Positions 3,892-13,330 of a DNA stretch of 64,000 nt are shown piece by piece. Numbering within the stretch: position 1 is the first letter of the stretch; each line of letters starts with the position of its first letter. The stretch is from positions 1 to 64,000 of the forward strand of contig CAIVEH010000248.1 of assembly GCA_903904855.1 (NCBI GenBank), written 5' to 3'. The notes beneath the pieces were generated by a model. That model worked only from the letters and a program-made list of their open reading frames with translations, was not told the origin of the DNA and did no database searches. A program made the translations under genes and the position numbers. This stretch comes from an uncultured Bacteroidota bacterium. GTDB taxonomy: Bacteria > Bacteroidota > Bacteroidia > Chitinophagales > Chitinophagaceae.

Positions 3892-4352
3892 AACTGTAGT
3901 TTTAGAGTATTAATATTAATTAGGGCAAATGTAATTAAGTAGAAGATCACTACCTGTTTTTTCATCTAAAACCAACAAGTGTTTCAACGGAATTCATTCT
4001 GTCTTAAAAGATCGATAACTGGTTGTTAGACTGGGAAAATATTGCTAAATGAGCAATTTTGAATTAACAAGCGAAAGGAAAAAATATTTCAGGGCTTTTA
4101 AAAAATACAGTCTGGCAGCGAATTCCACAAATTTTGGCTGTTTCACAACAATCCAATACAGTTTCACAACAATTTTTAAAATAAACAGCGTATATCATTT
4201 AGTTTGGCTGATGAAAAACCAAAGGAGGCTTTATTCTAATATTATCAAAAATGCTACATGATATAGCAGAGGTTTTAAAGAAAAAAATGCAAGTAGCAAC
4301 AAGCAGAATGCGTAACCGATCTTTTTAACAAGGCCCTTAACTCAAACAAAAA
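3892..4352. other. Intergenic stretch without recognisable genes
   Basis: The stretch is AT-rich. A 70-codon open frame at 4049-4261 has no recognisable motif, signal peptide or supporting promoter. It leads into the first copy of the conserved leader RNA. Confidence 0.5.
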
Positions 4353-4440
4353 CCTGCCCGGCACGGGAAATATGCCGGAGGCAAATTCCGAAAAGCCTTA
4401 AAAAGAGTAGGAGCTTTAGATAAACAATTATACCCTGTTA
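4353..4440 (+). ncRNA. Putative structured leader RNA, copy A
   Basis: The first of three related ~85-nt segments. It opens with CCTGCCC and forms stem 1 CCGGC (4358-4362) / GCCGG (4374-4378), then stem 2 GGC/GCC around a purine-rich loop, then AAAAAGAGTAGG. Compared with copies B and C the stems change sequence but keep pairing. An ATG follows at 4441, at the same relative place as the lipase starts behind copies B and C, but the frame there (4441-4662) is short and unrecognised, so the gene may have been lost. The family could not be matched to a known riboswitch from memory. Confidence 0.55.
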
Positions 4441-4669
4441 ATGTTCCGGATGCAATTCGTGAAACTAATTTGTGGCTGCATCCGGAGCATTTTCCTTAAA
4501 TGCCGTTTACTACTTCAAATCTGCACTTTACGCGTACTTTCTGCCATTGGCTACTTATCCCTTTCAGTCATTATTGCAGAATGTAGTTTTGTTAATCAAG
4601 TAATGAAAAAGAAAGTAGATAACCTTACCGGTTTTTCGGTTTACCAAGCCTCTTATTCTTAAAAACAAA
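4441..4669 (+). other. Unexplained segment between leader copies A and B
   Basis: It opens with a 73-codon frame (4441-4662) resembling no known family. CCGGATGCA at 4446-4454 and TGCATCCGG at 4477-4485 form a 9-bp inverted repeat. The segment may be the remnant of a gene once controlled by leader copy A, or spacer from a tandem duplication. Confidence 0.35.
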
Positions 4670-4755
4670 CCTGCCCCGCACAGGCACTTAAAGCGGGAGG
4701 GGGCAACTGAAAACCCGTTAAAAGAGTAAGGGATTTTTTTAAAAACCACATAATT
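4670..4755 (+). ncRNA. Putative structured leader RNA, copy B
   Basis: The segment directly precedes the lipase gene at 4756. Stem 1 is CCCGC (4675-4679) / GCGGG (4693-4697), stem 2 is GGG/CCC around AACTGAAAA, and the conserved tail is AAAAGAGTAAGG followed by a T-rich spacer to the ATG. An alternative pairing TGCCCC (4672-4677) / GGGGCA (4700-4705) excludes stem 1, which could allow a two-state switch. Covariation with copies A and C supports structure; the ligand or role is unknown. Confidence 0.6.
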
Positions 4756-5877
4756 ATGACTCAAACAAATGGTATGCTCAATCAGGAGATAAAGAACATT
4801 TTCAGCATTGGTATGCTGATTAATATAAACCAGGATTTCCCGTCACATTCTTCAGCCCAGGTAACCGAATTGACTAAATTGGCAATCACCAATGTATTGG
4901 CACATGCCGAAACCAGCCGTCTGATTGGTGACTGGAAACTGGTATGGGGGCCGATGGTGGATGTTACGGAGTTTCTGTTTATAAAAGCGCCACAGAATGC
5001 CATCTGCATTTATTACAATGTTAATACTAAATCTTACCTGGTTTCAATCGCAGGTACAGATGGATATAGCATCCCAACATGGTTAAAAGAAGATTTGGCG
5101 GTAGGTACTACAGAGCCATTGCCATTCGATAACGATGGGAACGAGCATATACTGATAGCCAAGGGTACCCACCTGGGCATGAAAATAATAATGGGGCTTA
5201 AAGACCCAATAACCGGGATAAACGCACATACCTTTCTGAAGGATAATGTAAAAAGCAATGACAAGATTTATATCTGCGGTCATAGCCTCGGCGGCACGTT
5301 AACCACAGTTTACAGCCTGTTGGTAAAAAATATGTTTCCCGATAACGAAATTTATAGTATGCCTGTTGCGAGTTCGGCAATAGGAAATACTGAATTTGCA
5401 GCTTATTATAGTAATAAATTTGATAAGGACCATAATTTACGCATCTGGAATGAACATGATGTCGCCCCACATATATTTCAACTCGACATGATGAAGCAAA
5501 TACCGGATATTTATAATCAGCCTGGTCAGAAATATCCTCCGATTCCTATTGATCTTATTTTCAGAGGTGTTGTTGATGTATTATATCTTCTGTCATCAAT
5601 GCATAATTACACACAATTGGATTACTTCTATTCATTCTGCTGTCCTGTAATTCAGCCTTCACAGTTTAACCCGCCACTTACAACCGCCACTACTTCCTGG
5701 CCGGTTCAGGTGCAATGCCAGCATGTTATATCCTATGGTTATAAAATAGGTAATCTTGATTTCTTTGCTCTGGTTTCAGAAGTATGCAATGCGCAGTTTA
5801 AAGACCTGGAGGGCTACCAGACCATATTGGGCAAGTTTTTTACCAATGGTATCAGTAACCCGTTTGAGGGTGAATAA
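4756..5877 (+). CDS. Class 3 lipase-like alpha/beta-hydrolase, no signal peptide
   Basis: A 373-residue protein with a lipase class 3 core: VSIAGTD near residue 97-102 in the position of the usual RGT oxyanion strand, and the nucleophile elbow ICGHSLGGT with Ser177. A plausible catalytic histidine lies in the C-terminal third. A WxxVWGP motif (~60-66) is shared with the neighbour at 6005, indicating paralogy despite low overall similarity. No signal peptide or lipobox is visible, so it is cytoplasmic or leaves by a route that needs no Sec signal (a T6SS- or contractile-injection-type effector is speculative). Leader RNA copy B precedes it. Substrate: presumably an acylglycerol or phospholipid, by family. 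Confidence 0.75.
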   Translation: MTQTNGMLNQEIKNIFSIGMLININQDFPSHSSAQVTELTKLAITNVLAHAETSRLIGDWKLVWGPMVDVTEFLFIKAPQNAICIYYNVNTKSYLVSIAGTDGYSIPTWLKEDLAVGTTEPLPFDNDGNEHILIAKGTHLGMKIIMGLKDPITGINAHTFLKDNVKSNDKIYICGHSLGGTLTTVYSLLVKNMFPDNEIYSMPVASSAIGNTEFAAYYSNKFDKDHNLRIWNEHDVAPHIFQLDMMKQIPDIYNQPGQKYPPIPIDLIFRGVVDVLYLLSSMHNYTQLDYFYSFCCPVIQPSQFNPPLTTATTSWPVQVQCQHVISYGYKIGNLDFFALVSEVCNAQFKDLEGYQTILGKFFTNGISNPFEGE

Positions 5878-5922
5878 TGCGGATTTGAATATCGTAAGTA
5901 ACCAATAAGCAAAAGTGATAAG

Positions 5923-6004
5923 CCTGCCCTGTACAGGTACTAAAAGCAGGAGGGGGAATCTGAAAACCCGTAAATAGAGTAAGGTATTTAAAGAATAATT
6001 ATTT
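5923..6004 (+). ncRNA. Putative structured leader RNA, copy C
   Basis: The segment directly precedes the second lipase gene (ATG 6005). Stem 1 is CCTGT (5928-5932) / GCAGG (5946-5950), including one G-U pair; stem 2 is GGG/CCC around AATCTGAAAA; the tail is AAATAGAGTAAGG. Length, element order and distance to the ATG match copy B. Between copies B and C the stem bases differ but pairing persists. Confidence 0.6.
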
Positions 6005-7507
6005 ATGAGTGCTAATTATTGTTCAACTGGATATCCAACTCCACCATCCACAAATCTGAACCAAAGGGAAATCATGTTAAGCTTCGCCTATCTGGCCTAT
6101 ACTGGCGAGGGAATAACCACTCCAAATCCGTGCCCGGCTATCCTGCAGCAGCTCAATACCTCCATGGCTCTGATAACTCCGTTGCAGAGTGCCGGTAGTG
6201 CCACATCTGCCTGGGAAATTGCCTGGGGACCAGTGGCTTATACAGTGCCTGGTGCAATTTATCAGGATAATATGATGTTTATTGCCAAAAACACGGAAGC
6301 AAGTGGAACTCCGCAATATGCTTTAGCTATCAGGGGTACAAATTTTGCCTCTGAAGTTGATTGGCTGGTTGAAGACTTTAACGTTGTTAATACTGTTTGC
6401 TGGCCATTAGCTTCTACAACGCCATCAGGAGGCGCTATGATCTCAGAGTCAGCCAGTATCGATATGAATATCTTACTCTACAGCATGACTGATACTGTTA
6501 CAACCCAACTTTCTCTCATTGATTTTCTTTCGAGCATAACTTCTGATGCGATTAATATATGTGTTACCGGACACAGCCTTGGTGGTATGCTTGCAAGTAC
6601 AATGGCGCTTTACCTGCTCGAGAATCAATCAATTTGGGATAATAGCGAGAATAAGAAGTCAACTGTAGCATTTATCAGTTTTGCTGCCCCAACCGCAGGT
6701 AATGCTGCATTTGCGTCTTATTCAAATACTATGTTTCAAAATGCCGCTCGCCCTGTGGACACCACCTGGGACAGCACTCTCGGCACCAATGGTGATGTCG
6801 TTCAAAGTTCATTGGATATTGCCCCGTATTTTTATACCAGCTCAAATATTTATTCAAACGAAGCAGCCGGGCCGTTGTTTTCTATTTATAATAATACTTT
6901 CAATTTTAGTAATCTAGGAGGTCTATTAGATGCTTATAAAAAAGAATGGGAAGCGTTTCAATCCACTGTTCTCGCTGGCCTTGCTGCTCTGACTTTAAAT
7001 AATAATTACACGCAACTGGCTACTACAGGCTCTGCGCTACCCAGTGTTTTTAATGGTCCAGGCCCAGCAAATAATACATTCTCAGATTACCTTGGCGCAT
7101 TCGTTTCACAGGCAATATGGCAGCATTCCAATAGTTACCCTAACATATTTAATTTGTGTGACCAGTTGCTTGATCCGACGATTATAGTCCGGAATAGTCC
7201 TTTTCTTACATCAATTACTCCAGCCGGTGCTAAACGACTGGATTCAGAACCACCTGTGCCTGTCTCAATAACTGGCTATAATTTGACCGGGCTTACAAAT
7301 CTGTTTGTTTACGCAGGCCCATGGATTTCTGTATCTAATCCTCCTGTTTTAAACGAAGCCGGTGATACATTGACCACGACATTTGTAATTAACAAGAGCA
7401 AAAGTTATAAAACACCAATGCCAGTAAGCGTTACTGTTTCTGGAATATCCGGAATCGGTACTGTAACCAGCAGTGCGGTTATCTTTACAATAGAGTACGA
7501 AATATGA
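6005..7507 (+). CDS. Class 3 lipase-like alpha/beta-hydrolase with C-terminal IPT/TIG-like domain
   Basis: A 500-residue protein. It shares with its upstream neighbour the W-E-I-A-WGP motif (~70-77), an RGTNFASEVDWLVEDF stretch (oxyanion strand, ~110-125) and the nucleophile elbow VTGHSLGGM with Ser191. The C-terminal ~95 residues (from FLTSITPAGAKR) look like an IPT/TIG immunoglobulin-type beta domain (VPVSITGYNLTG). No signal peptide is visible. It lies 127 bp behind the first lipase gene with its own copy of the leader RNA, so each gene is probably controlled separately by the same signal. A rho-independent terminator lies about 190 bp downstream. Substrate not predictable. Confidence 0.75.
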   Translation: MSANYCSTGYPTPPSTNLNQREIMLSFAYLAYTGEGITTPNPCPAILQQLNTSMALITPLQSAGSATSAWEIAWGPVAYTVPGAIYQDNMMFIAKNTEASGTPQYALAIRGTNFASEVDWLVEDFNVVNTVCWPLASTTPSGGAMISESASIDMNILLYSMTDTVTTQLSLIDFLSSITSDAINICVTGHSLGGMLASTMALYLLENQSIWDNSENKKSTVAFISFAAPTAGNAAFASYSNTMFQNAARPVDTTWDSTLGTNGDVVQSSLDIAPYFYTSSNIYSNEAAGPLFSIYNNTFNFSNLGGLLDAYKKEWEAFQSTVLAGLAALTLNNNYTQLATTGSALPSVFNGPGPANNTFSDYLGAFVSQAIWQHSNSYPNIFNLCDQLLDPTIIVRNSPFLTSITPAGAKRLDSEPPVPVSITGYNLTGLTNLFVYAGPWISVSNPPVLNEAGDTLTTTFVINKSKSYKTPMPVSVTVSGISGIGTVTSSAVIFTIEYEI

Positions 7508-7700
7508 AATGCCTATTCGTTATTCGTTAATTTTGGGATTAATTAGACGGGAATATAACACCTGGTTTGGATGATACATTATAGGTCAATAATCATAAGC
7601 CATAAGTGATTTCTACGAAATTATAACTTCAAGAGTTTCTGCGTTGACACTCAGGCTGAATGAATTGTTTATTAATTCTACGATCATTTATTTTAACTAG

Positions 7701-7733
7701 CCGCCATCCCTTCACCCGGGATGGCGGTTTTTT
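7701..7733 (+). terminator. Rho-independent terminator downstream of the lipase gene
   Basis: CCGCCATCCC (7701-7710) pairs perfectly with GGGATGGCGG (7718-7727) across a 7-nt loop and is followed by six T residues. Confidence 0.85.
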
Positions 7734-12775: not shown

Positions 12776-13330
12776 TTAGATAAAATGGATAATAAGCCTT
12801 GCTGCAATTTCAGCTATCAGCAGGCAGATAATAAATAGTACCACTGATTTTTCTTTCCGGATATTACAAGAAATCACAAAGGCGTTATAAAGCAAGGCTA
12901 TCATCCACACCATGCATACAAGGCTTACCAAACCAAGTGCAATGAAGGAGGGTGTAATTGCTTTTATTAAATCGTCGATAGTATGGTGGTTCATATCTGG
13001 CAGATTCATTCCAAAACCGGTAAAAGCCGAAAAAAGCATCACCCAGCGGGCCAATGCAAAGGTGCCGGCGACATCAATCAGTCTTATACTTGACTTCGAA
13101 AAAATAAGTCCGGCAACATAAAAAACAATAACCGGTATTAGCCAAACCACAAAACCCTCAAAGAAATAACGCCATGCAGCCGTATCTCTGGATCCTATCT
13201 GCAGCAGGCCATTAAAATGAGTATGACTAAAGCTGCAAATAAGGGCGGTAATAGCCATCACTACCAAACCGATAATTAGTGATCTGACCCCGGCTATATA
13301 TATAAACGGATTAAAGAGCCATTTTTTCAT
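12776..13330 (-). CDS. Polytopic membrane protein (Yip1-like)
   Basis: A 184-residue protein with five hydrophobic segments and the layout of Yip1/YIP1-domain proteins: an N-terminal MKKWLFNPFIYIAGVRSLI, then helices around VWLIPVIVFYVAGLIF, WVMLFSAFTGFGMNLP and ALGLVSLVCMVWMIALLYNAF. Its ATG overlaps the stop of the DUF2089 gene by 4 nt (ATGA), so the two are translationally coupled. The role is unknown. DUF2089-Yip1-hydrolase-bPH looks like one membrane-related expression unit. Confidence 0.72.
   Translation of the reverse strand: MKKWLFNPFIYIAGVRSLIIGLVVMAITALICSFSHTHFNGLLQIGSRDTAAWRYFFEGFVVWLIPVIVFYVAGLIFSKSSIRLIDVAGTFALARWVMLFSAFTGFGMNLPDMNHHTIDDLIKAITPSFIALGLVSLVCMVWMIALLYNAFVISCNIRKEKSVVLFIICLLIAEIAARLIIHFI

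Follow-up and report, generated by a model that had tools for sequence, protein, structure and literature searches.

The RNA class closest to the leaders described here is DUF805b (RF02914, clan CL00115), a motif that presumably stems from Weinberg et al. 2017; the literature searched, which lay outside that presumed source paper, yielded no functional study of DUF805b RNA. Among riboswitches, preQ1-I is about 35 nt long, has H-type topology and carries an A-rich third loop. In E. coli, a 5′ pseudoknot of tisB recruits the 30S subunit and S1 (PMC7708055), and in Bacteroidota translation initiates without a Shine-Dalgarno (SD) sequence and is tuned by mRNA structure (PMC6847099). Furthermore, five known Rfam cis-regulatory RNAs are confirmed in Flavobacterium psychrophilum (PMC9723704); for all three papers, these statements apply to the parts consulted.

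We analysed a window of 64,000 nucleotides from an uncultured bacterium of the Chitinophagaceae (contig CAIVEH010000248.1, positions 1 to 64,000), in which three related leader segments stand on the + strand, at the positions and with the order and spacing that the original prediction gave for them. Copy A (composite leader 4352–4412) precedes an ORF of just 73 aa (4441–4662), which is without a Pfam match and has its start inside a 15-nt inverted repeat. Copy B (4669–4731) and copy C (5922–5984) precede class 3 lipases, lipase B at 4756–5877 (PF01764, 48.7 bits) and lipase C at 6005–7507 (PF01764, 46.2 bits), all three genes being on the + strand as well. The ATGs at 4441, 4756 and 6005 follow the last core base by 28, 24 and 20 nt, again in agreement with the earlier description, and inspection by eye bears out that both lipases lack an N-terminal hydrophobic signal. 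When the three copies are aligned, 44 of 69 columns are invariant, and B and C share 84% identity over 70 nt. The inverted repeat just 3′ of copy A (4440–4454/4477–4491) has 15-nt arms, 93% complementary, with 22 nt between them, and its 9-nt inner arms occur a single time in the genome, with no recurrence. Copy A, preceding just the 73-aa ORF, may be an orphan leader. A strong terminator-like hairpin, with 12 pairs and a T-rich tail, follows lipase C at 7699–7729.

In terms of class identity, copy A matches RF02914 with 42.6 bits at 4378–4413, above the gathering score of 35.6 (cmscan, Rfam 15), and copies C and B match at a relaxed threshold with 32.4 and 30.8 bits, both under that score. 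The matches in B (E 3e-6) and C (E 8.9e-7) are full-length, covering model positions 1–35, with one non-standard pair each in the alignment. A GAAAA adjoining the 3′ strand of the hairpin and a AAAAGAGTAGG-like tail are present in all three copies. On their E-values, the full-length matches and the architecture common with A, copies B and C are counted as DUF805b. The three leaders are, as judged from their sequences, members of this known RNA class, and they extend beyond the 35 positions that the Rfam model covers. The novelty put forward in the original prediction thus falls away with the Rfam match and the feature itself stays; homologues beyond the locus do turn up, with covariation across many genomes and phages. 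RF02914 and the leaders described here are alike in core sequence, in position before genes and in phylum. The cmscan structure line of RF02914 is one nested 4-bp stem, to which the present tests add a second helix, P2, whose novelty is judged against that line and not against the drawing in the Rfam entry or in the source paper. An upstream pseudoknot, PK1, and tandem cores, both described below, fall outside the 35 positions of the model. Before a gene for a DUF805 protein in the genome (L064; PF05656 in the protein), there is a sub-threshold RF02914 copy of 21.5 bits.

With the support for P2 added to the nested stem, the pairing counts show that the core folds as an H-type pseudoknot, with P1 of 3–4 bp, a 4-nt loop, P2 of 3 bp and conserved GAAAA and GAGTA loops. 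The test used fixed positions, with no alignment freedom, in 331 distinct elements and 500 shuffles. P1 pairs 1–3 form in 300, 307 and 303 elements, where the best shuffles reach 169, 223 and 176, and pair 4 forms in 203, where the best shuffle reaches 158; these counts are biased in the own-genome, genus and family loci because the search model rewards P1; pair 5 is unsupported (114 of 331; best shuffle 148). P2 is no part of that nested search model. Its outer pair, which occurs as GC, TA, AT, CG and GT, can be made by 305 elements, compared with 194 in the best of the 500 shuffles. The inner pair can be made by 326, compared with 312 at best on shuffling, and the middle pair is invariant and thus uninformative. 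Viral elements were collected through their loop letters, ignoring P1 and the outer P2 pair; here P1 pairs 1–3 form in 104, 104 and 100 of 122 elements (best shuffles 67, 79 and 73) and the outer P2 pair in 100 (best shuffle 78). Furthermore, 15 further cores upstream of elements, found only via GAAAA..GAGTA, all pair the three P2 bases, seven of them with letters not covered by the canonical harvest (four cases of GCA/TGC and one each of CCG/CGG, TCG/CGA and GAC/GTC); since 14 of the 15 come from the own genome or the genus, not every one of them is independent evidence. Duplication likewise relates part of the own and genus elements to each other, and the counts are thus of non-independent events. 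Named-genome elements were excluded from the 331 because the pattern used to collect them already prescribed part of P1 and P2. The own-element harvest holds at least one false element (L068:8808, before a histidine-kinase-like ORF), which was kept in the pairing and ATG-distance counts.

At the locus itself, P1 of copy A pairs 4380–4382 with 4395–4397 (GGC/GCC) and P2 pairs 4387–4389 with 4410–4412 (TCC/GGA), the conserved loops lying at 4390–4394 (GAAAA) and 4405–4409 (GAGTA). The corresponding helices are 4699–4701/4714–4716 (GGG/CCC) and 4706–4708/4729–4731 (ACT/AGG, outer pair mismatched) in copy B, and 5952–5954/5967–5969 (GGG/CCC) and 5959–5961/5982–5984 (TCT/AGG, with one G-U) in copy C. 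What had been described as stem 2 is a real covarying helix, namely P1 of DUF805b, and it belongs to a second pseudoknot that is closed by the end of the tail. Nested folding of the three copies shows no excess stability over shuffles (z −0.49, −0.46 and +0.28), values near zero that reflect a test not useful for a pseudoknotted element.

PK1 abuts the 5′ side of the core, usually with a 1-nt linker, in 28 aligned composites (15 own, 13 genus). Its first helix, S1, is CCTG/CAGG, but CCTG/CGGG in copy A, and the intervening loop pairs with the strand just 5′ of the core as S2. In copy A, S1 is 4353–4356/4364–4367 and S2 is 4358–4363/4373–4378 (CCGGCA/TGCCGG), followed by the linker at 4379; in copy B, S1 is 4670–4673/4681–4684 and S2 4675–4679/4693–4697 (CCCGC/GCGGG), with the linker at 4698; in copy C, S1 is 5923–5926/5934–5937 and S2 5928–5932/5946–5950 (CCTGT/GCAGG), with the linker at 5951. 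The stem 1 pairs of the earlier description (CCGGC/GCCGG, CCCGC/GCGGG and CCTGT/GCAGG) are real, yet they form the second helix of an H-type pseudoknot and not a hairpin. On the P2 and PK1 pairing tests, two pseudoknots take the place of the two nested hairpins originally drawn. The competing UGCC/GGCA pairing that was also proposed is possible in just 2 of the 28 composites (copies A and B) and is thus not conserved.

By per-sequence shuffles, PK1 is present in 17 of 38 own-genome elements where 0.6 would be expected, and in 10 of 78 genus elements (2.3 expected), about six of these ten resembling the consensus; beyond the genus it is near chance in the family (7/95, 3.1 expected), viral (6/122, 5.2) and named-genome (4/129, 3.6) sets. 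In an earlier version of this shuffle, p was 0.05 or lower for 18 of 39 own and 7 of 94 family elements. Across the 28 composites, 90.2% of cells are paired and 7 of the 15 pairs changed on both sides, results equalled by 0–2 of 500 shuffles; slid controls pair 23–55%. The score is lowered by the MAFFT alignment, which shifts S1 by one base in several rows, and S1, though not S2, is partly built in, as the rows were picked by a pattern requiring S1-like letters. A first partner-shuffle of S2, in which the anchor was rigid, did not reach significance: 65 of 115 pairs formed over 23 distinct S2/S2′ rows, compared with a mean of 59.4 on shuffling, and 221 of 2000 shuffles did as well. That test misplaced its anchor in several rows, included a few rows without PK1 and had few S2 types to draw on, and it was replaced by the per-sequence shuffles and the aligned pair count.

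A composite model of 63 positions, with copies A, B and C among its 28 training sequences, scores these three at 67.8, 76.6 and 78.0 bits. Above 55 bits it has 16 matches in the own genome and 8, 5, 2, 1 and 1 in five congeners, mostly training rows, and at this level it is found in the own genus only; among 198 genomes sampled from the order, none but the own genome exceeds 45 bits, the best other score being 44.6. The double-pseudoknot leader, PK1 plus core, appears to be an extension of DUF805b that is found only in the own genus. The same slot can also be filled differently: a second DUF805b core takes the place of PK1 in 13 elements (3 from the own genome, 9 from the genus and 1 from the family). 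These are the 13 of the 15 further upstream cores that lie at one fixed spacing, equal to the 1-nt linker plus P1 and its loop. Because both fill the same slot, we infer that PK1 and the second core are an optional upstream knot stacking on the core.

A further hairpin, GTGG..CCAC, stands 11–13 nt 5′ of PK1 in 10 of the 28 composites (L067, L069, L072, L417, L421 and others) and is mostly preceded by a palindrome like GTTTGCGCAAAC. Hairpin and composite together seem to make up a leader cassette that has been copied before genes unrelated by eye. One composite leader in the own genome (L067:5735–5796, − strand; G000:C37; 56.4 bits) has a degenerate core, in which GATAA replaces GAAAA, and is not closely followed by an ORF; it is probably an orphan relic.

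The core is widespread. In the family, 40 of 60 genomes (own included) match RF02914 at E up to 1e-6, 32 of them over the cut-off; of 35 genomes of the genus, again counting the own, 24 match, 19 over the cut-off. In six loci there are 10 further matches over the cut-off. A strict pattern finds at least 119 stretches in named genomes. Among the 80 named-genome loci listed, 78 are from Bacteroidota and two from Ignavibacteria, according to record titles; these two records (L319 and L332) carry the DUF805b-type pattern outside Bacteroidota proper. In viral contigs, a looser pattern, which admits chance matches, finds at least 120 stretches. Among the 80 viral loci listed, 66 of 83 matches can form the outer P2 pair; 41 of the 66 have a P1 of at least 4 bp as well, compared with about 4 in shuffled flanks. 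RF02914 matches 19 of 20 chosen viral records, 17 over the cut-off. In Flavobacterium phage vB_FspS_lillamy9-1 the match scores 52.1 bits at 12781–12815 and lies just 5′ of a gene with a ParB-like domain (start 12836), ParB-like being the commonest PHROG among the phage targets (11 of 63 scanned). The end of one congener stretch (L420:3542–3595, +) holds a partial match to group-II-D1D4-3 intron RNA of 37.8 bits, with its 3′ end cut off.

Within the own genome (5.6 Mb, 271 contigs) there are 42 RF02914 matches at E up to 1, of which 33 have E <1e-4 and 16 are over the cut-off. The nine weakest are uncertain because 14 control genomes also match at E up to 1, none of the 14 having a match over the cut-off; several of the nine look right by eye. 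The genes behind the leaders encode lipases, lectins, RiPP-like precursors and T9SS proteins, with targets that include class 3 lipases, Big_2, Por_Secre_tail, a ricin-type lectin, an Rv2525c-like hydrolase, kelch plus beta-propeller lectin, carbonic anhydrase, DUF1842 and GEVED. A Pfam scan of 30 protein references matched 11 and left 19 without a match at E up to 0.01; one of the 11 is the histidine-kinase-like ORF behind the false element, and none of them is, in our judgement, a translation or replication protein. In contigs C54 and C119 and in the window, every clustered gene has its own leader copy. Five RiPP-like precursor genes on C119 (L070, L061) each carry a DUF805b leader of their own; four of the five peptides have sub-threshold matches to the class I lanthipeptide leader model, and four of the five leaders have a divergent PK1.

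The link with lipases made by the original prediction is not supported. The targets are diverse, Lipase_3 occurs in 2 of 132 target proteins of relatives, and phage leaders precede ParB-like genes. The leader does stand before 3 of 13 non-own homologues of lipase B (39, 39 and 31% identity; 60 genomes), the other ten having no DUF805b core on the gene strand of the examined stretch. Across these genomes the leader is neither specific to lipases nor always retained with a lipase gene, and the suggestion of a fatty-acid ligand is not supported. Lipases B and C share 26% identity over 200 aa. The argument that leaders more alike than their coding sequences imply selection is weak alone, and leader copying could explain the likeness, since near-identical cassettes precede genes unrelated by eye in the genus; it is covariation across genomes and phages that shows the selection.

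The position relative to genes is consistent. The ATG that opens an ORF of 40 aa or more lies 13–34 nt 3′ of the core in 35 of 38 own, 68 of 79 genus, 68 of 95 family, 87 of 122 viral and 110 of 134 named-genome elements (71–92%), compared with 7.7–9.1% at random positions. TAnnTTTG, which we take to be the −7 box of Bacteroidota, was searched for in the 100 nt upstream. It is found in the family set at 15 of 95 elements versus 5.5 (9 of the 15 boxes 30–39 nt before P2), in the viral set at 20 of 122 versus 6.5, in the genus at 15 of 79 versus 4.3 with scattered positions and, weakly enriched, in named genomes at 14 of 129 versus 8.0; before own-genome copies it is at background level (2 of 38 versus 1.3). 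The enrichment in the family and viral sets makes a transcript start close upstream of the leader plausible in general.

The reading that we prefer, and to which we give about an even chance, is that the leader pseudoknot acts in cis on accessory genes, tuning their translation initiation or the access to their mRNA. Its action is placed at this step because the 13–34 nt to the ATG leave little room for a terminator, because the phylum initiates without SD and by analogy with tisB. The constant loops would probably be the contact for a trans-acting factor, such as an S1-like protein, another RNA-binding protein or a small ligand, and the upstream knot or second core would probably stack on the core to provide stability or a second binding site. 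The median 5′ UTR of F. psychrophilum, given as 24 nt in the part of the report consulted (PMC9723704), is shorter than any leader that would hold the element, which counts against this explanation. So do the background level of TAnnTTTG before the own-genome copies, its weak enrichment in named genomes and its scattered positions in the genus, along with the unsupported P1 pair 5, the outcome of the first S2 partner-shuffle and the duplication among own and genus elements. A bolder form of it sees DUF805b as a phylum-wide ribosome-docking pseudoknot that replaces the SD contact, is common to Bacteroidota and their phages and, in the genus, became a tandem double pseudoknot copied as a cassette before unrelated accessory genes. 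The position of the leader and the SD-less phylum are consistent with such docking, and we regard this form as doubtful.

Protection of the mRNA would predict the same data as the translation-initiation reading. Pseudoknots at the 5′ end may block the decay of short mRNAs, with little or no regulation, and the promoter-like boxes upstream in the family and viral sets, the use by phages and small precursor-like genes and the provision of one copy per gene in the C54, C119 and window clusters all speak for this. For a stabiliser, however, the stability of the fold should matter more than the invariance of the GAAAA and GAGTA loops, and P1 has just 3–4 bp; we think this reading unlikely. A small-ligand riboswitch of preQ1-I-like size and topology, answering a broad signal, for instance a second messenger, and serving a large mixed regulon, would account for the compactness of the H-type pseudoknot, the invariance of its loops and the variety of targets within each genome. 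The tandem cores at one fixed spacing also resemble tandem riboswitches, a known arrangement. On the other hand, the distance to the ATG leaves a riboswitch little terminator room and no SD-sequestering platform is seen, phage use is unusual for a metabolite sensor, the targets lack a coherent pathway and no riboswitch family matches the window at 4200–6200 at E up to 10, so this too is an improbable explanation in our assessment.

Two more sceptical readings fare worse. Function might be absent at this locus, the leaders reflecting recent duplication only and copy A being an orphan relic, as could be argued from the identity between B and C, the cassettes duplicated before unrelated-looking genes, the short ORF without Pfam match behind copy A, with its start in the inverted repeat, and the ten lipase homologues without such a core. 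We hold this to be very unlikely, as S2 and P1 differ among A, B and C in a paired fashion and three lipase homologues of 31–39% identity in other genomes do have the leader. It is hardly credible that the element acts at the DNA level, as a promoter or operator, in spite of its fixed place before genes and the palindrome that precedes the leader in part of the genus: P1 and P2 covary freely and interleave, with the fixed letters mainly in loops, whereas a binding site conserves letters and crossing pairings are unexpected in duplex DNA.

Returning to translation initiation or mRNA access as the preferred role, the present analysis adds to DUF805b a pseudoknot model, a double-pseudoknot variant in one genus, tandem forms of fixed spacing and a presence in phages. 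The pseudoknot model, the tandem forms, the phage copies and the 33 strong copies in one genome offer a testable regulon, and Flavobacterium phage lillamy9-1 (38 kb), with one strong copy, is a simple test system. The class bears on how mRNAs are selected for translation in a phylum without Shine-Dalgarno contacts.

Compared with known systems, the DUF805b core is like preQ1-I and other H-type riboswitches in size, in topology and in its A-rich third loop; unlike preQ1-I, it has the 3′ strand of P2 placed 13–34 nt from the AUG in most elements, and it gives no riboswitch-family match. The tisB standby pseudoknot, as described in the consulted part of that report, acts about 100 nt from a sequestered RBS, unlike the DUF805b leader. 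The likeness lies in a 5′ leader pseudoknot, which aids 30S binding in tisB and might do so in DUF805b, and we use it as a working analogy, claiming no homology between the two.
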